IMG/VR virus record: IMGVR_UViG_3300050821_010487 | Location: 1-64,000 of that record | Length of the DNA: 64,000 nucleotides | Origin: a virus | Direction: 5' to 3' (one strand) | Part shown: positions 1 through 60,840 of the stretch, piece by piece | Position numbering within the stretch: the first letter of the stretch is position 1 | Layout: every line of letters begins with the position of its first letter | Notes under the pieces: generated by a model | What the model was told of the DNA's origin: nothing | Database searches by the model: none | What the model saw: the letters and a program-made list of their open reading frames with translations, nothing else | Translations under genes and position numbers: made by a program

Positions 1-1739
1 TCCTTGAAGCCGCCGGCCGTCATGATGCCATCAAAGTCGGCGGTGTCCACTTCCACCAGGCGCGTCCCGCCGCTGCCGACGGGCACCGGGCGGTTCAGCA
101 GCCGGCCGGCCCGGCTCCACCGCTCGGCGTAGTCGTCGCCCAGCGCGGTCGCGGTCAGCCGGTCGAGCGGCGGCCGGACGGTCGCGGTGTCCATCGCGAC
201 GCGGTAGATCGGGCATGTAGGCACGCATCCGCTGTCGCAGAGCGTCTCGTCGGTCTCGCTGCCCGGCTTCTTCGGGTGGTCGAGGAAGAAGAACTTGGTG
301 GCCAGCGAACTCTGCTTGCTCATGGTGATGGTGCCCGCACCCTGGATGCCGGCCAGCGCCGCGGAGCGCTTCTGCGCTTCCCGGTTGTCGGGGTTGACGT
401 AGCGGGCTTCGGCTTCGGTGGCGGTGCCGAGCATGATCCTCTGCTTGCAGTTGGCCTTCATGTCGCCCGAGCCGGCCATGGAGTTGGTGCCCCGCTGGGA
501 CGCCCACACCGAGGTGCATGCCAGCGCGCGGCCCTTCTGGGTGATGTCCTCGCCCATCCTGATGAACTCGGTGTTGGTGGTGGCGTCGTCGCCAACCTCC
601 TTGCGGGTGCCCCGCATCTGGCCGAACAGGTCGGCCATCTCGTCGGTGATCAGGATGATCTGCGGCATCGAGGCCGACGGGGTGATCTTGGAGCCGTGGG
701 CGGAGTTCATCCGGGCGTCCACTGCCTTGACGAAGCAGTGCATCATCAGGGCGGCCTCGCCCCTGGTGGTCGCGACCCAGTCGATCGCGGGCACGCTGGT
801 CTTACCGTCGGCGAAGGGGCGCAGCCAGGGCCTGGCGACCATGCCGCCCTTCATGTCGATGACCCAGATGACGGTGTCGGTCATGCCGCAGAGCTGCGCC
901 AGGATGACGTTGATCAGGTTGCTCTTCCCGGCGTCGGTCAGGCCGATGATCATTGTGTGCAGGCCCTTGAGGGTGATCATCGCGACCGAGCCGTCCTCCT
1001 GGATGCCGATGGCGAACATCTTGTTGATGGTGTGCGCGCGGTGCTCGGGCTGGAACGGGATGGTCTGGCCCAGGAAGTCCTTCTCCCGCAGCCGCATGGT
1101 GACTTCGGCCGAGTGAGCGCCCTCGGCGAACTCGATCTTGCCGCCTTTCAGGTGCAGGATGACCTCGATCCGCTTGGCGGCCTGGCTGAGGTCATCGATG
1201 GTGACCTTGCCCGAGCGGGGGAGCTGCAACTGAACGATCCGGCCGCCCAGCTCGCGGTCCAGGCCGGTCACCTGGACGCCCTCGAATCCCAGCGCCGTGA
1301 ACATGTGCTCGAACTTCTCCACCTGCTCGGCCAGCTCGGCGTCGGGGCCCGGCTTGGCCGCTGCGGCCTTCTTCTCCTCTTCCGGCATGTCCCGCGCGTG
1401 CGCCGCGGTGAGCGCCATGAGGGGGATGAAGGTGGTCACGCTGGCCATCCAGGCGAGGAGCACCACCGGGTGCCACAGCCGGGCGGCCTGTGCCCACGCG
1501 GCCCAGCCGGCCATGGTGGCCCCCATCGCCAGGGCGGAGACGGAGAACCGGGCGCTGCCGGTCAGGCACCAGATGACAAAGGCGGTGATGGCCCCGCCGG
1601 CGGCGCAGACCGAGGGGATCACCCAGGCGTGGATGTGGGTGTGGGGCAGCACCGCGACCGCGGCGAGAGCACCGACCTCCAGGAGCAGCACCGTCTCGGT
1701 GGCGTGTTCCCAGATCTTGCTGCCCGGCGCGCTCCTCAC
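1..1739 (-). CDS. FtsK/SpoIIIE/TraB-type DNA translocase (3' end outside window)
   Basis: Membrane-anchored DNA-pumping ATPase. The GTG at 1739 follows AGGAGG by 7 nt; the frame is open to the window edge, giving 579 residues without a stop. The N-terminus has several hydrophobic segments (about residues 15-110) followed by a charged linker. Walker A is GLTDAGKS (about 264-272) and Walker B is IILITDEMADLF (about 360-371), the arrangement seen in FtsK/SpoIIIE proteins and in the single-protein conjugation pumps (TraB, TraSA) of Streptomyces plasmids and integrative elements. The C-terminal recognition domain, if any, lies outside. It is divergent from a DUF2637-like membrane gene, a common pairing in actinobacterial conjugative elements, so a transfer or segregation role is inferred rather than virion packaging, for which a separate terminase exists. 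Family assignment is confident; role is not. Confidence 0.9.
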   Translation of the reverse strand, partial: MRSAPGSKIWEHATETVLLLEVGALAAVAVLPHTHIHAWVIPSVCAAGGAITAFVIWCLTGSARFSVSALAMGATMAGWAAWAQAARLWHPVVLLAWMASVTTFIPLMALTAAHARDMPEEEKKAAAAKPGPDAELAEQVEKFEHMFTALGFEGVQVTGLDRELGGRIVQLQLPRSGKVTIDDLSQAAKRIEVILHLKGGKIEFAEGAHSAEVTMRLREKDFLGQTIPFQPEHRAHTINKMFAIGIQEDGSVAMITLKGLHTMIIGLTDAGKSNLINVILAQLCGMTDTVIWVIDMKGGMVARPWLRPFADGKTSVPAIDWVATTRGEAALMMHCFVKAVDARMNSAHGSKITPSASMPQIILITDEMADLFGQMRGTRKEVGDDATTNTEFIRMGEDITQKGRALACTSVWASQRGTNSMAGSGDMKANCKQRIMLGTATEAEARYVNPDNREAQKRSAALAGIQGAGTITMSKQSSLATKFFFLDHPKKPGSETDETLCDSGCVPTCPIYRVAMDTATVRPPLDRLTATALGDDYAERWSRAGRLLNRPVPVGSGGTRLVEVDTADFDGIMTAGGFK

Positions 1740-2097
1740 GGTGTCCTCCTGACTATCGCGGGCCGTCACAGTTGCATGGCACAACACTGAAGTTAGCAGG
1801 TTCCTTACCAACGGACGAGGGCCAGGTGTGACGCGGGAACACGAAATGCCGGTTTTGCGCTGTGACCTGTACTGTGACTGTGACGATTCGTTAGCTGGAA
1901 AGGCGTCAGGGCTTAGTCACACTGCAATCGGTCACACTTGCGAATAATCGCAGGTCAGCGCGCTGCAGTGTGACCCCGGGCCTGCCGGAGGGGCCAAAAT
2001 GGGCCATCCTGGAGGTGTGATCGTGGACGATTACAGGGTTTCTTGATAACGTGAGAACCCTGCCGAAGCTCTGCGAACCGCCCCAAAGGAGGCGAAG
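1740..2097. promoter_or_regulatory. Divergent control region with eight TGTGAC/GTCACA hexamers
   Basis: This 358-bp gap separates the leftward translocase from the rightward membrane-protein operon and holds no convincing gene. TGTGAC or its complement occurs at 1765, 1827, 1861, 1873, 1879, 1916, 1931 and 1969. The copies at 1916-1925 (GTCACACTGC) and 1965-1974 (GCAGTGTGAC) form a perfect 10-bp inverted repeat. The rightward promoter element (2023-2052) lies at the right edge. The density suggests binding sites for a regulator, or iterons; no candidate regulator gene was recognised in the window. Confidence 0.55.
2023..2052 (+). promoter_or_regulatory. Promoter with embedded 19-bp element (copy 1)
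   Basis: GTGGAC, an 18-nt spacer, then TAACGT. The spacer carries TTACAGGGTTTCTTGATAA (2031-2049), differing at one base from the consensus. It lies 46 bp before the ATG at 2098, which has its own AAAGGAGG site. Confidence 0.6.
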
Positions 2098-3192
2098 ATG
2101 ACGGCCACCGATACCGCTGAGAAGCCGTCTGGCTGGGACCGTGCCACTGCCGTGGCCAGCTCTCCCGCCACCCAGCGCGTCACCCGTGCCATCGGCCTCG
2201 CTGTGCCAGTCCTGCTGGTCAACACCGTGGCATTCTTTGGCCAGTTCGGGTACCTCAAGGACCACCTGCCGTGGCCCGTGGCCGGCGTGGCCATGGCCGC
2301 GGTGGCACTGGAGTCCATCGCTATCTACCTGCAGTGGCACGCTCACCTGGCCCAGATGGCCAACGACAGCGCGCTGCGCCTGCGCCTGGCCAGCTACGCC
2401 CTGGCGCTGGTGATCGGCGCGATGAACTACTCCCACTACGCCGGGCCGCACTGGGCGCCGACGGTCCCGGCCGTGATGCTCGGCCTGATGTCGGCGATCT
2501 CCCCGTGGCTGTGGGGCATCCACTCCCGGCGCGTCTCCCGTGACGAGCTGATGCGCCGTGGCCTGGTCGAGGAGCACGCGCTCCGGCTCGGTGCCACCCG
2601 CTGGATGTGGCACGCGCTGCGCTCGTTCCGGGTGATGCACCGTGCCACCTGGACCGGCGAGACCGACCCGGCACGTGCCATCGAGCCGTTCGCGGGCCAG
2701 TACGAGCGGCCCGTGCCACCGCGCCGGAACAACGGCACGCCGGAACAGCCCGAGCTGGCACAGCGTGCCAGCGTGCCAGCGGCCGATCGTGCCATCGCTC
2801 CCTGGCACAGCGAGCCGGAACGCATCGCCCTCGGTGTCGCGCCGGCCGCGCCAGCGGTCCACGCGGCCAGAGCCACCCTGACTGCCTCCCCCAGGCTGCC
2901 GAAGGGCGTTCCTGAGGAGAGGGTCACCGAGGTCGAATTGAAGCTGGCCGGAATGACGCTGGACCAGCTCCATGGCACGTCAGCCCGGGAAGTTTCCCGG
3001 ATGCTCGACCCCGATAGGCCGAACAACCAGCGTCGGCTGGGTGCAAACCTTCTCACCGCTGCTATTGGCGCCAAGACCCAGGAGCCGTCCAATCCGCCGT
3101 CGTCCGTGAATGGCGTGCAACGTGCAGCGCAAGTTTCATCACTAATCCCGATCCCCGTCGGGCACAAGCCCGGAGGTGTTGCCAGTGGCTGA
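2098..3192 (+). CDS. DUF2637/SpdB-like four-helix membrane protein
   Basis: Probable inner-membrane protein of 364 aa. Four hydrophobic helices lie at about residues 28-52, 58-80, 94-115 and 121-141, followed by a basic patch (SRRVSRDELMRRG), a proline/alanine-rich linker and a small C-terminal helical region that may bind DNA. The layout matches actinobacterial DUF2637 proteins and Streptomyces plasmid spread (Spd) proteins, usually next to FtsK/TraB genes as here. The start has AAAGGAGG 8 nt upstream and the promoter element at 2023-2052. The gene contains sixteen copies of TGGCAC/GTGCCA in all three reading frames, far above chance, so the DNA itself may be a binding site. The family call rests on topology and neighbourhood. 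Confidence 0.7.
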   Translation: MTATDTAEKPSGWDRATAVASSPATQRVTRAIGLAVPVLLVNTVAFFGQFGYLKDHLPWPVAGVAMAAVALESIAIYLQWHAHLAQMANDSALRLRLASYALALVIGAMNYSHYAGPHWAPTVPAVMLGLMSAISPWLWGIHSRRVSRDELMRRGLVEEHALRLGATRWMWHALRSFRVMHRATWTGETDPARAIEPFAGQYERPVPPRRNNGTPEQPELAQRASVPAADRAIAPWHSEPERIALGVAPAAPAVHAARATLTASPRLPKGVPEERVTEVELKLAGMTLDQLHGTSAREVSRMLDPDRPNNQRRLGANLLTAAIGAKTQEPSNPPSSVNGVQRAAQVSSLIPIPVGHKPGGVASG

Positions 3193-3957
3193 TACCGAAA
3201 CCGTCGCGGCGCCCGAGAGGTCCCGGGCGTCCAGGCCCCGGCGTGCGGGAATCGGGGTGCTGCTCCTGGTCGTGGCCGGGGCCGCGGTCGCCCAGGTCGC
3301 CGGCGCCGGGATCTTCATCGTGATCCTGATCGGGCTGGGGGTGATCGCCGGGCTGTGGGTCCTCTCCCGCGTCCTCCCGGCGCTCGCCTCCATGGCTGGC
3401 CACTGGCGGAGCCTCCGGGGCTCACGCAGCCCGCGTTCCTCCAGGCAGGGCCTGAAACGCCCCCCGGGCGGCCCCAGGCGGCGTAAGCCGTTCGGCCGCG
3501 GTGGCGGCAGCCCTCTCGGCCGCAAGAGCGGAGGGGGCCGCAAGGGGCTCGGGCTCGGCCGTGGCGGCTCCGGCCGGAAGGGCTCGGGCCTGAGCCGGAA
3601 GGGGAAGTCCTCCAGGCCGGCCGGTGGCCAGCGCTCCGGTCTCCTGGGCCGCAAGGGTGGCCCCAAAGGTTCCGCCCGGACTGGTACCGGCAAGAGTTCC
3701 CGCCGGCACAAGGGCCCTGGTGCCAAGCCACCGTCGGGCCGCAAGGGAATCCTCGGCCGTGGCCGTGCCGGTGGCACGGGACGCAAGCGTGGCACGGGCG
3801 GTGCCGGTGGCACAGGTCGCAGGCGTGGCATTCTGGGCCGGCACCGCAGCGGCCGGGGAGGCCGTGGCACGCCGCATGGGCCGGCACACCGCCGCCGTGG
3901 TACTGGCACGGCACGCAGGCGCCGGTTCCTCCGGTTCCGCCGGCACGCCCCTGGCAC
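2141..3957. repeat. Dense TGGCAC/GTGCCA hexamer cluster
   Basis: At least 23 copies: 2141, 2186, 2203, 2303, 2335, 2591, 2608, 2642, 2675, 2713, 2756, 2765, 2773, 2789, 2803, 2973, 3720, 3772, 3790, 3808, 3865, 3904 and 3952. About one copy per 1.5 kb is expected at this GC content. GCTGGCAC-AGC-GTGCCAGC at 2754-2772 is an inverted repeat. Copies fall in different codon frames (Val-Pro, Arg-Ala, Trp-His, Gly-Thr), which argues for a DNA-level signal. Confidence 0.6.
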
Positions 3958-4918
3958 ACCCCCGCGCGGCGGGAACACCCGTGGGCGCCCCCAGGGGCAG
4001 CGCCGTGGCCGCCAGCAGCCTCAGGGCCAGCCACAGGCCAGGCGCCGGCGCTTCCGCATCTTCCGCCGCCGTCGCGGGCCACAGCCGCAGGGCCAGCAGC
4101 AGCCTCAGGGCCGCCCCCCGCCGCCGAGGAGCCGGGCCCGCCGCTGGCTGCGCCGGAACACCCCCCGGGCCCGTGCCCGGCGCCGTGCCGCCCGCCGGCG
4201 TCACCGCCTTGGGCTTCCGCCGAGGGCCCCGCTGCCGCCGCGGTGGCGCCCGAGCCTGCGCCGCACGATGCGCTGGCTCACTCCCCAGGGCCGCAGGGCC
4301 CGGAGGGCCAGGAGAGCGGTCCGGCTGCGTGTCCCGCCGAGGGCCCGGCTGGCGGCTTTCTTGCTAACATGGTGGCAGCGCATGCGCCCGGATGGATACA
4401 GCGGCGAGGACGCACAGCTCCCGCTTCCCCGCCCCGCCCGGTGGGTGCAGCCCCCGCGCCAGGACCCGCATGACGCGGAGATGCCGTCGGCGTCTCCGGC
4501 GCAGCCCGCCAGGACCCTGGTCCCGGCAGGCAACCTCAATGATCCACCCCAAGGAGACAGGATGACTGACGCAGCAACGACCACCCCGATCCAGAGCGCG
4601 ACCGAGGCCATGCGTGAGGTGCTCGGCGGCTACGACCCCCAGAATCTGATGTCGGCGCTCCAGGTCTTCCCCGACCTGGCCGAGCACTACGACGGGATGG
4701 CCGAGAACCTGACCGCCCTGGCGGCCCGGCTCGATGAGAGCCCGGTGCACGAGACTCTTCGGGAAAGCCTCCGCGAGCAGGCGGGGGTCTTCGGTGGCCT
4801 GGCCGACCAGGCCCGGGAGGCTCACGCCCAGGCGCAGAGCCTGCACGAGGACGACATCCGGCGCATCAACGAACCGCGTACCGGCGAGAACATGGCGGAC
4901 TTCGAGGCTCACCAGTAG
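3185..4918 (+). CDS. Very basic low-complexity membrane protein with acidic helical tail
   Basis: 577 aa from the GTG at 3185, 8 nt after GGAGG and overlapping the previous stop. Two hydrophobic segments (about residues 20-62) precede some 330 residues dominated by Arg, Lys, Gly, Pro and Gln, including runs such as RRRRFLRFRR, then a soluble helical tail (about 459-577). No enzyme family is recognisable. The arginine-rich part would bind DNA or RNA strongly, so a membrane-tethered nucleic-acid-binding role in transfer is an inference. AAGGAGA just before the in-frame ATG at 4561 suggests the tail is also made alone. The repetitive base composition might instead produce an open frame by chance, but the helices at both ends look real. 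Confidence 0.6.
   Translation: MADTETVAAPERSRASRPRRAGIGVLLLVVAGAAVAQVAGAGIFIVILIGLGVIAGLWVLSRVLPALASMAGHWRSLRGSRSPRSSRQGLKRPPGGPRRRKPFGRGGGSPLGRKSGGGRKGLGLGRGGSGRKGSGLSRKGKSSRPAGGQRSGLLGRKGGPKGSARTGTGKSSRRHKGPGAKPPSGRKGILGRGRAGGTGRKRGTGGAGGTGRRRGILGRHRSGRGGRGTPHGPAHRRRGTGTARRRRFLRFRRHAPGTPPRGGNTRGRPQGQRRGRQQPQGQPQARRRRFRIFRRRRGPQPQGQQQPQGRPPPPRSRARRWLRRNTPRARARRRAARRRHRLGLPPRAPLPPRWRPSLRRTMRWLTPQGRRARRARRAVRLRVPPRARLAAFLLTWWQRMRPDGYSGEDAQLPLPRPARWVQPPRQDPHDAEMPSASPAQPARTLVPAGNLNDPPQGDRMTDAATTTPIQSATEAMREVLGGYDPQNLMSALQVFPDLAEHYDGMAENLTALAARLDESPVHETLRESLREQAGVFGGLADQAREAHAQAQSLHEDDIRRINEPRTGENMADFEAHQ
4364..4377 (+). promoter_or_regulatory. Half-copy of the 19-bp element inside a gene
   Basis: GGCTTTCTTGCTAA matches the right half of the repeated element, followed by CATGG. 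The left half has diverged and there is no good -35 box, so it may be a weak internal site ahead of the start at 4561. Confidence 0.3.
4561..4918 (+). CDS. Possible internally initiated 118-aa helical protein
   Basis: In-frame alternative product of the 3185-4918 gene. The ATG at 4561 is preceded by AAGGAGACAGG, as good a ribosome site as most in the window. The product is acidic and helical (MTDAATTTPIQSATEAMREV at its start), with heptad-like leucines and alanines. It resembles small secreted or coiled-coil proteins but no family is recognised. The sequence cannot tell whether it is made separately, as part of the long protein, or both. Confidence 0.45.
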
Positions 4919-6670: not shown

Positions 6671-6951
6671 TGACCAGCCGTAAGCCGGTCAGGCCCCTGG
6701 AGGACATGCCGGACGGTGAGCGCGAGGAGTGGATCAGGAAGGCGCCGGTCCCCGTCCGGGACTACATCAAGCACCTGGAGGCCGAGCTGGCCGGCCAGGA
6801 CGAGGAGCTGGCGGACGTCCAGAAAGCCGAGGACTTCGGCCAGGCGATCATCAGCCTGTGGACGGTAACCGCCATGCGCCGTCACAAGGCGGGCGACCAG
6901 GCGGGCTCTGACCGGGCTTTCCGGGCCGCGCGGCTTCTCCGGGTTGACTGA
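6670..6951 (+). CDS. Hypothetical coiled-coil protein, 93 aa
   Basis: Starts in a TGATG overlap with the previous gene. A short charged N-terminus precedes a helix (VRDYIKHLEAELAGQDEELA) likely to form a coiled coil. No family recognised. The -35 box of the next promoter (TTGACT) lies across its last codons. Confidence 0.65.
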   Translation: MTSRKPVRPLEDMPDGEREEWIRKAPVPVRDYIKHLEAELAGQDEELADVQKAEDFGQAIISLWTVTAMRRHKAGDQAGSDRAFRAARLLRVD

Positions 6952-6973
6952 CTACAGCTTTTCTTGCTAACCT
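6944..6973 (+). promoter_or_regulatory. Promoter with embedded 19-bp element (copy 4)
   Basis: TTGACT, an 18-nt spacer, then TAACCT. The spacer contains CTACAGCTTTTCTTGCTAA (6952-6970). It drives the gene at 7014. Confidence 0.75.
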
Positions 6974-7013
6974 CGTGCCAAGCACGAACCACCCAGCGAA
7001 AGGGAGACCAAGA

Positions 7014-7811
7014 ATGACCGCCACCGCCGAGACCACGGGCACGACCGCCAAGCTGGCGCCGGTAGCCCCTGGCATCCTCGCACAGGCCCAGCCCGGCAAG
7101 TCCTGGACCGTTGCTTCGCTCGCCGGCCTGCTCGCAGGCCCGGCGCCGGAGCTGCCAGAGACCGCGCCGTTCCCTGAGCCTCCTGCGGCCGTTACCTTCA
7201 CCCCGGCCCTGCGGAAGTCGCTCAGCGCGCTGCCCAGCATCGTCGGCCAGGTGAACCCCACCGCCCGCCGGCTTCTGACGGCCGGCGAGCTGGCCCAGGT
7301 CACTGATGAGCGCAACGCGATCAACGCCGTGGCCGAGCCGCTGGCCAAGCGGGTCAAGGTCATCAGCGAGTACGTCCGGACCCACCAGGACCTCCAGGCC
7401 GAGGCGGCCCGGCAGGCCACCCCTACCGCGGTGGTCCGCGGCGGGCGTGTCATCACTCTGGCCACCGAGCGTGTCGCCGACGGCGCCGCGAAGGGCCACT
7501 ACCTGCTGGCGATGCCCGAGGCTCCGTACGAGACCCCCGTCGAGGGTTACGACGACGCCTGGCAGCAGCGCTACGTCAGCGGCCCGGTGAGCCAGTCCCT
7601 GGGCGCGCTCGAAGCGCTCCTGGCCGACGGCGCCATCGACCGCAAGGAGTACCTGGCGATGACCCGGGAGACCCGGGCCCTCGACCAGGGCAAGATCACA
7701 GCGTTCATCGCGAAGAACCCGGCCCGCGGGCTGGAGATCCTCGCGGCGATCACCAAGCGCGGCGCCCCCAGCGCTTCCCTGTACGCCCCGAAGAAGAAGT
7801 CTGAGGGGTAA
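7014..7811 (+). CDS. Hypothetical phage protein, 265 aa
   Basis: The ATG at 7014 has GGGAGA 5 nt upstream. An Ala/Pro-rich N-terminus precedes a helical core (about 75-130) and a C-terminal helical part ending in a basic tail (YAPKKKSEG). It forms a single-gene unit with its own promoter element and a strong hairpin downstream, so it is probably well expressed. No family recognised. Confidence 0.7.
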   Translation: MTATAETTGTTAKLAPVAPGILAQAQPGKSWTVASLAGLLAGPAPELPETAPFPEPPAAVTFTPALRKSLSALPSIVGQVNPTARRLLTAGELAQVTDERNAINAVAEPLAKRVKVISEYVRTHQDLQAEAARQATPTAVVRGGRVITLATERVADGAAKGHYLLAMPEAPYETPVEGYDDAWQQRYVSGPVSQSLGALEALLADGAIDRKEYLAMTRETRALDQGKITAFIAKNPARGLEILAAITKRGAPSASLYAPKKKSEG

Positions 7812-7821
7812 GCCAACGATC

Positions 7822-7858
7822 GCGGCGGGACCCCCGGATGACCCGGGGGTCCCGCCGC
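7822..7858 (+). terminator. Strong hairpin terminator without U-tract
   Basis: GCGGCGGGACCCCCGG, a 4-nt loop, then the complementary strand. GC-rich stems lacking a U-run are common as actinobacterial terminators. Confidence 0.7.
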
Positions 7859-7885
7859 ACGAACACGAAAGGCAAGGCGGAGGAC

Positions 7886-8293
7886 ATGGCACCCCCCAGG
7901 CAAGAGGTGGCCTACGTGGTCACGGACGCGATGATTTTGAGCCGCAACTGGAACCGGAAAGCGGCGCCGTTCTACAGCGTGCACCTGGTCGCGCAGGTGT
8001 TCTTCGCCATGTCCAGCTCGTGGCTGAGGCTCAAACTGAACTCCGAGCCCGGCCGCCCGAATACCTCGTTTGTCGGCGAGGACGGCAAGCGCATGGAGAT
8101 CCGCCGGCGCAACCCCAGCAAGTCCGACTCGGCCCGGGTGTTCACGCTGGCCGACGTTGAGAGGATGGCCCGGTCCCTGGCCGGCTTCGGCGACATCTCC
8201 CAGGCCCGGCTGGCGCAGATCCTGCGCCTGGTCGAGGCCGAAGCCACCCTGTACGGGCTGTTCGATGAAGCGCCCGAGGAGGCCGCTTCCTGA
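7886..8293 (+). CDS. Hypothetical protein, 135 aa
   Basis: ATG at 7886 preceded by GGAGG. The N-terminal half is rich in Trp, Arg and Lys; the C-terminal half is helical (SQARLAQILRLVEAEATLYG). Its stop overlaps the start of the exonuclease gene, suggesting a replication-associated role. No family recognised. Confidence 0.65.
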   Translation: MAPPRQEVAYVVTDAMILSRNWNRKAAPFYSVHLVAQVFFAMSSSWLRLKLNSEPGRPNTSFVGEDGKRMEIRRRNPSKSDSARVFTLADVERMARSLAGFGDISQARLAQILRLVEAEATLYGLFDEAPEEAAS

Positions 8294-9303
8294 TGACTGC
8301 ACGCGCGGGTCTCTCCGGCCCTCAGCGGCCCCGGGCGGTGACGGGACAGCCTGACACCGTCCCGCTGCTCCCGGCCGCTACAGGGCCACCAGAGGCACGC
8401 GCGGAGCCGATTCTCGCGATAGACGGCACGGGGCTGCTGGTCCGGTGCAGCCGCGCGGCACGGCATGCGGGACTCCACGGTCCTGCCGGTGAGCCCACGG
8501 GCGCGCTGATGATGTTCATCAGCTCCCTGTCCAGGAAGATCAGGCTGGTCCAGCCCAGCCACGTCGTGGTCGCCTGGGACGGCCCGGACGCCACGCTCTG
8601 GCGCCGCGGGCAGTGGCTGCCCTACAAGGCGGGGACGCCCGACGTCCACCGGCTGGGCGGCGAGCTGGACAACGCCATGGAGTTCTGCGGCGCGGCCGGG
8701 ATCTACCAGCTCTGCTTCCACGGGTTCGAGGCCGACGACGTCCTGGCCGCGATCAGCCGGGCGGCGATGAACATGCCGGAGCACCCGCTGCTGATCGCCT
8801 CCGACGACCAGGACCTCCACCAGCTCGCCGATGAGTATCCCCATCACAGCGTGGTGATCACCGGGCTCACCAAGGACCACCTCATCACCGAAGACGACGT
8901 CCGGCAGCAGTGGGGCACGTCCGGTTGGGCTCTTCCCCGGCTCCGTGCGCTCGCGGGAGACGCCAGCGACAACATCCCGGGGCTGCCGGGAGTGGGCCCG
9001 GCCAAGGCACTCAAGATGATGACGCGGGCGCACTGGAGCTGGCCGCCGTGCGAAGTGGTCATAAAAGATCCAGAACAGCGCAGATTGGCTGTAATCTGGC
9101 GGAACGTCATGGACCTTGTCATTCCTGTCAGGCCCCTGGAGGAGACTACTGGGGCGGAGATGTTCCGGCCGTTCCGGGAGCTGTCCCGATGGGACCCAGA
9201 TTCCGGGCAGAACGCCCTGGAGCTGCTGGACAGGTACGGAATGACACAGATCGCTCAGCTACTGCGGAAGGGAGGCCTCTGGAAGCCGGCGGAAGGTGCT
9301 TGA
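8293..9303 (+). CDS. 5'-3' exonuclease, FEN/PolA N-terminal type
   Basis: 336 aa; removes RNA primers or flaps during replication. The PIN-like core has AIDGTGLLVRC (about 42), VVAWDGPDAT, FEADDVLAAI and IASDDQDL as metal-binding acidic motifs, then the helix-three-turn-helix DNA-binding signature GDASDNIPGLPGVGPAKAL. No polymerase domain follows, as in phage stand-alone exonucleases. The first 40 residues are a proline-rich extension. First clear member of the replication block. Confidence 0.93.
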   Translation: MTARAGLSGPQRPRAVTGQPDTVPLLPAATGPPEARAEPILAIDGTGLLVRCSRAARHAGLHGPAGEPTGALMMFISSLSRKIRLVQPSHVVVAWDGPDATLWRRGQWLPYKAGTPDVHRLGGELDNAMEFCGAAGIYQLCFHGFEADDVLAAISRAAMNMPEHPLLIASDDQDLHQLADEYPHHSVVITGLTKDHLITEDDVRQQWGTSGWALPRLRALAGDASDNIPGLPGVGPAKALKMMTRAHWSWPPCEVVIKDPEQRRLAVIWRNVMDLVIPVRPLEETTGAEMFRPFRELSRWDPDSGQNALELLDRYGMTQIAQLLRKGGLWKPAEGA

Positions 9304-12252: not shown

Positions 12253-12263
12253 ACAGCCGTTCA

Positions 12264-12368
12264 GTGCGCATCTTGAGGGCCAGTGCGCATCGAGTGCGGA
12301 TTAAAGTGCGGAAGATATTTTCGGTTTTCACCGGATGAGCAGCCGATAGTGCGCAAGTGCGCATCGAG
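12264..12368. repeat. Iteron-like GTGCGCATC array, candidate origin
   Basis: GTGCGCATC at 12264, 12283 and 12357, GTGCGCA at 12349, GTGCGGA at 12294 and 12306. A rare AT-rich stretch (about 12300-12330, AAGATATTTTCGGTTTTC) sits between the repeats. Repeats, AT-rich DNA and the adjacent primase-helicase gene together suggest a replication origin. Confidence 0.5.
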
Positions 12369-12404
12369 CTGCTCTCCGGGCTGTTCTGGATTTTTGGAGG
12401 CAGG

Positions 12405-53262: not shown

Positions 53263-53291
53263 ACATTACAGGGTTTCTTGCTAACGGTCAA
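53263..53291 (-). promoter_or_regulatory. Promoter with embedded 19-bp element (copy 11)
   Basis: On the minus strand TTGACC, 17 nt, TAATGT: the best match to a sigma-70 promoter among the copies. The spacer contains TTAGCAAGAAACCCTG. The leader then carries GGTT-CTGCAAGG-AACC. Confidence 0.85.
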
Positions 53292-54103
53292 TCCATCCAG
53301 CCCAGCTTCGCCAGCATTCCCTCGCGCCAGAGAAGAGCAAAGCCGAGGCAGTTGTTGCAGTGCTGGTGGGTGTGCCCCGGCAGCGGCAGCTCCCGGCACG
53401 CCGTCAAGGACCAGGACGTCGAGTCCGAGCTGACCAGGCAGTCGCCGAACAGCTCCAGGCCGGTGGTCTTCACGCCGAAGCCGTGCAGCCGGATGCCGTG
53501 GCTGGCGAGGTCGCTGGCGATGATCCCGGCCATCGTCGTGCTCTGCCGCCGGCAGAAGGTGCCGAGCCCCACCGTCTTGAAGCTGGCCAGGTCCACGCCC
53601 GCGTCCTCGTACATCTCCCGGCATCGCAGGTAGTCGAACCGGCGCTTGCCCTGGAGCGTGGGGATGACCGGGCACGGCCCGTCGCCCCCGGACGGCCACA
53701 GCTCCACCAGGCGCAGGTAGTTGTCCACGGTGCGGCGCAGGTGGTCGTGGACCTGCAGCCCGGTCGCGGCGAGGATCTCGTCCTCATTCATGAAATCCAT
53801 GCCCGCGGCCCACTGCAGGCTGCCGATCTCCGCCTGGTAGCGCGCGACGTTCGCGAGGTACTGCTGCTCGGTGAACTGCCAGCGGCCGGTGTGCTTGAGC
53901 TGCATGTAGCCGCCCGAGTCCAGCGCCCAGGGGCCGATCGCCCGGGGAAGGGTCTTGCGGTCGCGCAGGTGCTGGTCGGCGACGAACAGCGGGACGTCTG
54001 TCTGCTCCAGCCATGCGGGCTTGTGGGTACCGAGGTAGAACACAGGGGCCTGAGAGGCCACCGGCCCGGTGGTTAGCCGGGCCGGTGTGGTCGTGGTGGT
54101 CAT
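53288..54103 (-). CDS. DpdA-like 7-deazaguanine DNA transglycosylase (TGT family)
   Basis: 271 aa; ATG at 54103. FYLGTHKPAWL, PWALDSGGYMQL (substrate-binding Asp-Ser-Gly-Gly), AAGMDFMNED, VIPTLQG, KTVGLGTFCRR and LVSSDSTSWS follow the TGT/DpdA order, the last containing the probable catalytic Asp; HCNNC near the end may bind zinc. Phage DpdA proteins exchange guanine in DNA for preQ0-type bases and so block restriction. No preQ0 synthesis gene (FolE, QueD, QueE, QueC) lies in this window, so precursor from the host or from elsewhere in the genome would be needed. Confidence 0.8.
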   Translation of the reverse strand: MTTTTTPARLTTGPVASQAPVFYLGTHKPAWLEQTDVPLFVADQHLRDRKTLPRAIGPWALDSGGYMQLKHTGRWQFTEQQYLANVARYQAEIGSLQWAAGMDFMNEDEILAATGLQVHDHLRRTVDNYLRLVELWPSGGDGPCPVIPTLQGKRRFDYLRCREMYEDAGVDLASFKTVGLGTFCRRQSTTMAGIIASDLASHGIRLHGFGVKTTGLELFGDCLVSSDSTSWSLTACRELPLPGHTHQHCNNCLGFALLWREGMLAKLGWMD

Positions 54104-60468: not shown

Positions 60469-60674
60469 TGGCACTCAGCCGGAACGCTGTGCCGCCTCTC
60501 CTGGCACAGGCTGTGCCAGGAGCTGGCTCACGAACATCAGGCACTGGCACCCCGGCACCTGGCACGGCCCCAGCCTGCCGGAACGCCCCTTGTGCCAGAC
60601 CTTGGCGTGCCAGCACGTGAACGGCACGCTGGCACAGGCCGAGCCGTGGGCTGGCACGCTCTCGCCGCGTGCCA
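60469..60674. repeat. Second dense TGGCAC/GTGCCA cluster
   Basis: Ten copies in 206 bp (60469, 60502, 60513, 60545, 60560, 60592, 60607, 60630, 60652, 60669). CCTGGCACAG-G-CTGTGCCAGG at 60501-60521 is a perfect inverted repeat. Lies in the 3' part of the gene at 60475-60840 but not its 5' part. Confidence 0.65.
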
Positions 60675-60840
60675 GCCTGTCCACCAGGACGCCCTCGTCA
60701 GGCGTCATCGGGTGCGCGCCACGGCCGCCGCGGAACGCGCGCCAGAACCTGGTGGCCTCAGGGTGCAGCCGGCACTCCTCGCTGCCGGGGTAGCCGGCCT
60801 GGTGCAGCTCGGCGCAGCGGGGGCAGACAGGCTTGGTCAT
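60475..60840 (-). CDS. Zinc-ribbon protein carrying the hexamer cluster, 121 aa
   Basis: ATG at 60840. CPRCAELHQAGYPGSEEC gives an N-terminal zinc site, and CQVPGCQC a second near the C-terminus. The last 70 codons are made largely of the TGGCAC/GTGCCA repeat, read as Trp-His, Cys-Gln and Val-Pro. No family recognised. Confidence 0.6.
   Translation of the reverse strand: MTKPVCPRCAELHQAGYPGSEECRLHPEATRFWRAFRGGRGAHPMTPDEGVLVDRLARGESVPAHGSACASVPFTCWHAKVWHKGRSGRLGPCQVPGCQCLMFVSQLLAQPVPGEAAQRSG

Follow-up and report, generated by a model that had tools for sequence, protein, structure and literature searches.

Self-encoded arrays of short words in DUF2637 genes of large actinophages and actinobacterial plasmids: putative binding sites for a membrane-anchored protein working with a DNA translocase

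The left end of the IMG/VR virus record IMGVR_UViG_3300050821_010487 contains a dense array of the hexamer TGGCAC/GTGCCA, which is written into the coding sequence of a gene for a DUF2637-type membrane protein (gene 1) and of the adjoining gene for a Gly/Arg-rich protein (gene 2). The sequence analysed, called here the window, comprises positions 1-64000 of this 82,335-bp record, which is labelled G000 among the compared genomes. The array exceeds what the encoded protein requires and constitutes a signal at the DNA level; it is kept at a fixed place with a word that differs between elements, and in plasmids this word matches the class to which the DUF2637 protein's C-terminal domain belongs. 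It is proposed, with a probability of about 0.52, that the array represents element-specific, self-encoded putative sites for a DNA-binding protein which is anchored in the membrane and acts together with the translocase encoded beside it; binding, membrane tethering and a role in transfer or segregation are the parts of this proposal that we infer from sequence comparison. The self-encoded, element-specific site array in DUF2637 genes of large actinophages and actinobacterial plasmids is what is new here. We know of no function for DUF2637 proteins, and in the literature searched the family is mentioned by a single paper, in passing.

A sequence-only reading of the window had claimed at least 23 copies of the hexamer in 1.8 kb, and this strong excess was borne out, as 23 copies were counted in 2141-3957 against about 1.5 expected. 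The whole window contains 81 copies against 51.3 expected (maximum of 73 in 100 shuffles), and this total falls to background level once the main cluster and a second one at 60469-60674 are removed, so the distribution is uneven and the excess is confined to clusters. Among all hexamers of the record, TGGCAC/GTGCCA ranks first for clustering (92 copies there). The full motif can be written (C)GTGCCA(G/C), and the 7-mer CGTGCCA has zero copies in the 2 kb upstream. The main cluster consists of two blocks with a gap of 740 bp between them:

2098-3192, plus strand: gene 1, DUF2637-type membrane protein of 364 amino acids
2141-2978, both strands: main array, 16 copies, all within gene 1, mostly (C)GTGCCA
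3185-4918, plus strand: gene 2, N-terminal membrane segment followed by a Gly/Arg-rich tail
3720-3957: second block, 7 copies in gene 2, six of them plus-strand TGGCAC in one frame, mostly encoding Gly-Thr

The copies of gene 1 (10 GTGCCA and 6 TGGCAC) occupy three reading frames and reach their peak density, 10 copies, in 2591-2808. The earlier statement that all reading frames and both strands are used is thus correct for gene 1 and fails for gene 2, where 6 of the 7 copies are TGGCAC in a single frame. When protein and codon usage were preserved in 2000 synonymous shuffles, 5.0 copies were expected in gene 1, with a maximum of 10, and none of the shuffles reached the observed 16; preserving the codon-junction context too raised the mean to 8.1 and the maximum to 13. 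In gene 2 the 7 copies compare with 1.1 expected and a maximum of 6. Therefore, the protein accounts for a minority of the copies only. Gene 1 occupies the first rank among 27 genes of the record in the same test.

The protein encoded by gene 1 is, by clear homology, a member of the DUF2637 family: it shows 30% identity to DUF2637 proteins of Streptomyces plasmids (tblastn, 2e-9), and whereas it lies itself under Pfam detection for PF10935, its homolog from L045 scores 25.5 (cut-off 22.8). In the AlphaFold2 model, a bundle of membrane helices is followed by a linker predicted to be disordered and by a C-terminal domain of four helices, modelled with confidence. The last two parts correspond to the following positions:

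2704-2895, plus strand: disordered linker of gene 1, residues 203-266, pLDDT about 36
2914-3081, plus strand: four-helix C-terminal domain of gene 1, residues 273-328, pLDDT 90-97, candidate reader of the array

Related to this, the C-termini of the homologs in L015 and L050 gave helix-turn-helix matches, which are below the curated cut-offs.

Among the phage relatives, G002 has the same layout, a gene 1 protein 50% identical and GTGCCA again as the most clustered hexamer (15 copies). There the hexamer is written GTG CCA (Val-Pro), whereas the linker of the window has Arg-Ala and other residues at these places and the two linkers are dissimilar. The motif is found in a relative despite changed protein, as the sequence-only reading had envisaged, and the synonymous shuffles indicate that protein sequence alone is insufficient to explain it. 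In L043 there are 30 copies of GTGCCA against 7.1 expected. In G005, L045 and L047, which carry the same three genes, the array is replaced at the same place by CGCGCCA, with an excess over the protein that is modest in G005 and L047, where it lies close to the 95% level for the maxima of the shuffles. G003, also with the three genes, has the word GCACCCCC (CGCACCCC) at the array position, and less close relatives show CCCGCCA (L050), GGAACCA (L052), GGCTCA (L054) and GCGGGCA (L056). Synonymous shuffles were exceeded in G002, G003 and L043 as well. The layout of gene 2 is common to G002, G003, G005, L043, L045 and L047; G004/L015, with a different layout and no array, served as the negative comparison. 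In phage Galactica (L066, MT316461), gene 98 (2909-4564) contains 13 copies of CCGGACC against 2.4 expected; this gene encodes a Gly/Ser/Arg-rich 'membrane protein', is the equivalent of gene 2 and adjoins an FtsK-like gene.

The orientation of the words has also been compared. An excess on the plus strand in gene 1 and on the minus strand in gene 2 is observed in G000, G002 and G003, but this polarity fails in L043, where the orientation is mixed, and in L045, where it is mostly one way; outside the array the strand counts in G000 are 29 and 40. The suggestion of an oriented octamer of the kind read by FtsK, distributed genome-wide like KOPS, had to be abandoned, since the motif occurs in clusters and the members differ in the way it is oriented.

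Plasmid DUF2637 proteins are remote homologs of the gene 1 protein. Seventeen of their genes were analysed (15 from Streptomyces, 1 from Kitasatospora and 1 from Saccharopolyspora). Distant plasmid loci looked negative in a search for TGGCAC but contain other words; arrays are present in 17/17 genes and exceed the synonymous shuffles in all of them. The words are CGGACCG (7 genes), CGGAACG (3), CGAACCG (3), CGAGACC (2), CGGCCCG (1) and CGATCGA (1). With the exception of the CGATCGA gene, the arrays (16/17) are concentrated towards the end of the gene, within its final third and ahead of the part encoding the C-terminal domain, and they are 3- to 295-fold denser than their flanks. The exception belongs to a Saccharopolyspora pogona plasmid (L102), whose DUF2637 gene at 6737-8554 contains 85 copies of CGATCGA against 47 expected, with almost none elsewhere. 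The excess ranged from 6.8 to 37.6 in the DUF2637 genes, and its largest value was 8.3 in 23 control genes of the same loci; therefore, the weakest plasmid arrays (L100, L005, L099 and L094) are not separable by excess alone.

The plasmid set allows the word to be compared with the proteins that could read it. Whether two plasmids share a word was predicted by how similar their DUF2637 proteins are over the last 75 residues, with an area under the curve (AUC) of 1.00 for the 15 loci with a defined core, and of 0.998 for all 17 loci, a value reached by 0 of 2000 label permutations. In the same test the membrane core gave 0.72, the downstream ATPase 0.54 and the C-terminus of the ATPase 0.67, the last two values referring to loci with a fetched putative ATPase gene, picked by position and annotation and not by a confirmed TraB match. 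Individual loci illustrate this: between L061/L092 and L005/L064 the ATPases are related (40-45%), yet the domains and the words differ, whereas L096, L097 and L100 have domain and word in common but not the ATPase.

According to the mechanism that we propose, the DUF2637 protein would itself be the most likely reader of the array, by way of its C-terminal domain. The helical bundle would anchor the gene 1 protein in the membrane, the disordered linker would extend outward, and the C-terminal domain would hold many sites within its own gene. The DNA of the element would thereby be tethered at the membrane, beside the co-encoded FtsK/TraB-type translocase, which could then move it in the course of transfer, of spreading from one hyphal compartment to another or of segregation. 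With array and reader domain in a single gene, both would be swapped and diverge together, and each element would in this way acquire an address of its own.

The hexamer also forms clusters far from gene 1. The sequence-only description of its packing refers to 2141-3957 and overlooked the following one:

60469-60674: distant cluster, with CTGGCAC/GTGCCAG occurring 10 times over 206 bp, within a minus-strand gene (60475-60840)

This cluster is denser than the main one and contains perfect inverted repeats, with strong folding (z -5.6). Homologs of the gene in G006 and G007 also contain GTGCCA clusters, in the case of G007 although the word of its main array is CGCGCCA. In large genes of G006 two more GTGCCA clusters are found, at 66273-66675 and 69747-70206, and they lie above the synonymous expectation (11 copies against 2.8 and 18 against 4.5).

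Several observations weigh against the proposed reading. A single self-encoded site does not account for the clusters far from gene 1, at 60.5 kb in the window and at 66 and 70 kb in G006. The array is absent from the relatives L015, L048, L055 and L057 and weak at most in L051, and the DUF2637-like gene 96 of Galactica has none. The gene 1 model gave neither an informative Foldseek match nor a significant fold match in the PDB. Among the phages, the covariation between word and C-terminal domain is weak (AUC 0.70, 7 members). Besides, the linkers of plasmid pairs with the same word are 37-64% identical and related by descent; as linker and domain are adjacent and jointly inherited, co-inheritance alone could yield covariation without recognition. 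The joint exchange of linker and domain on a common core would be the expected look of a specificity cassette, which is not a proof of binding.

The main rival to recognition by the DUF2637 domain is recognition by the translocase. In this explanation the array would be a site of the clt/TRS type, to which the translocase binds through its C-terminal winged helix in order to assemble and pump double-stranded DNA of the element. The gene in question is:

3-1739, minus strand: FtsK/SpoIIIE/TraB-type DNA translocase (open frame 3-1811; C-terminus lost at the start of the record)

That the array adjoins a DNA translocase, as had been stated from the sequence, was confirmed: the protein has an FtsK/SpoIIIE motor domain (PHROGs FtsK/SpoIIIE-like match, 1.5e-32) and is 31% identical to a 'DNA translocase FtsK' of a Streptomyces plasmid, and its homolog in G005 scores 27.3 for PF01580 (cut-off 24). 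A winged helix with the order H-H-H-E-E is predicted at the C-termini of the translocases of relatives (pLDDT 84-87), and therefore the translocase remains a serious candidate reader; a fold search of the translocase C-terminus against the PDB was without significant match. TraB of pSVH1 acts in this way on its 8-bp repeats. In Streptomyces conjugative plasmids, the known clt sites consist of direct repeats of 5-9 bp that are specific to each element; TraB recognises them by its C-terminal winged helix-turn-helix, and the sites may overlap tra (PMC3583192). The Galactica array, lying in a gene that adjoins an FtsK-like gene, would also be in agreement with this rival. However, the plasmid word appears to track the DUF2637 domain more than the ATPase or its C-terminus, no translocase could be detected up to 7 kb from the L050 array, and the key domain of the window's own translocase is cut off by the start of the record. 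Recognition by the translocase is considered less likely than recognition by the DUF2637 domain, though it is the strongest of the alternatives. The guess of a translocase-recognition site is supported as regards a recognition-type site at the DNA level near a translocase, and so far unsupported as regards the translocase as reader: the sequence-only reading was right in part as to the kind of site and probably wrong on which protein reads the array.

A less probable explanation is a centromere-like partition site, read by another DNA-binding protein of the element or of the host that is unrelated to gene 1 and the translocase. Arrays of short sites beside one operon are typical of centromeres, the additional clusters (at 60.5 kb in the window and at 44, 66 and 70 kb in G006) would fit several loading sites, and parA lies 4.6 kb upstream in the plasmid from Saccharopolyspora. 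On the other hand, the array is tied to DUF2637 genes despite differing neighbours in phages and plasmids and tracks the DUF2637 domain, and ParA and ParB were not recognised among the window proteins scanned, which cover only part of the genes; for these reasons such a site seems improbable. Finally, the words could be a side effect of codon bias and of repeats in the protein sequence, in disordered regions rich in Pro/Ala and Gly/Arg, the DNA itself having no function. This explanation would suit the low-complexity linkers, the 5 of 16 copies expected from the protein in gene 1 and the nearly constant Gly-Thr in one frame of gene 2, but it is already contradicted, and hence very improbable, by the synonymous shuffles in G000, G002, G003, L043 and all plasmids, by the same hexamer being written in G000 and G002 in different frames and for different amino acids, by the first rank of gene 1 and by the plasmid DUF2637 genes with the largest excesses, which lie above the same-locus controls.

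Beyond the window, there is about an even chance that DUF2637 proteins are widespread membrane-anchored DNA-binders of actinobacterial plasmids and phages which use their own genes as docking site, with array and reader domain forming an exchangeable cassette that would mark DNA for transfer or segregation; large actinophages would then carry a plasmid-type module. If this is true, a function is predicted for DUF2637 proteins, together with the DNA target of each element from sequence alone, and a mobile element would label its own DNA by means of its coding sequence. It also suggests a way to locate sites that act in cis in transfer or segregation, both in large actinophages with FtsK-type genes and in the large linear plasmids of Streptomyces, and the specificity of element recognition would become open to synonymous recoding and domain swaps.

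The left end of the record contains, in this order, the translocase gene (minus strand), a control region of 350 bp, gene 1 and gene 2, the last with an internal start at 4562 that could give a separate second protein. Further elements are:

1765-2020: intergenic control region between gene 1 and the translocase gene, which are divergent; it contains 8 GTCACA/TGTGAC boxes out of 15 in the record
2033-2049, plus strand: promoter-like element ACAGGGTTTCTTGATAA, upstream of gene 1
2033, 4351, 5072, 6954, 50668, 53268, 54539, 57011 and 59084 (plus strand) and 12662 and 59900 (minus strand): positions of the repeated element TTACAGGGTTTCTTGCTAAC

The GTCACA/TGTGAC boxes, which likewise lie between divergent genes in G002, G003, G005 and G006, are probable operators of a transfer-type repressor. 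TTACAGGGTTTCTTGCTAAC is a probable phage promoter: it has 15 copies in the record, mostly intergenic, and is also kept in G002, G005, G006 and G007. Its variant TTCTTGATAA is present as a single copy per genome, directly upstream of gene 1, in G000, G002, G006 and G007.

The terminase of the record is about 33% identical to terminases of large actinophages, and other genes encode a DNA polymerase III alpha, a prim-pol/D5 primase and a UvsX-like recombinase. The relatives include contigs of 162-166 kb, and therefore the record probably represents part of the genome of a large actinophage. When only the gene 1 protein or the translocase served as query, no relative was found in the viral and genome collections; the first useful relative was obtained through the DNA polymerase and the remainder through alignments, and the genome collection yielded none. 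A DpdA homolog is encoded at 53288-54043 on the minus strand (Pfam 1.9e-79), and therefore the phage may have DNA modified with 7-deazaguanine. Directly after the primase gene, at 12262-12380, there are repeats of the type AGTGCGCA, which are possible iterons of a replication origin; clusters of related words (AGTGCAC, ATGTGCAC and TGCACAA) are found in G002, G003, G005, G006 and G007.

Some characterised systems resemble the array described here in part. The clt/TRS sites of pSVH1, pIJ101, pJV1 and pWTY27 are also short, clustered, element-specific repeats beside an FtsK-type translocase, but clt covers about 50-175 bp and has only a few repeats, whereas the present arrays extend over about 0.8-1.8 kb, with up to tens of copies, inside a DUF2637 gene, and their word appears to follow the DUF2637 domain more than the ATPase. 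KOPS/SRS, read by FtsK/SpoIIIE, are likewise short motifs close to a translocase of double-stranded DNA; KOPS occur throughout the genome in a set orientation, unlike the present clusters. In pIJ101, SpdA2 binds sps, which is located in the spdA2 coding sequence, so that sites within the gene of the putative reader, in a transfer or stability region, are common to both cases (PMC4170104). However, sps is a 12-bp palindrome with 2-3 copies, conserved between plasmids, and not a set of many 6-8-bp words that differ between elements, and SpdA2, which is small, gave a zinc-finger match. SpdB2 of pSVH1, an integral membrane DNA-binding protein that interacts with TraB (as reported in PMC4170104), is similar as a membrane DNA-binding protein of a transfer region and differs in that its DNA binding is described as non-specific. 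In the Streptomyces plasmid SCP2, parS is found inside parT, the gene of its own binding protein (ParATS; PMC12260392), which again places the site inside the gene of the putative binder; this parS is a single 18-bp inverted repeat acting with ParA, and it involves neither an array nor a membrane protein.
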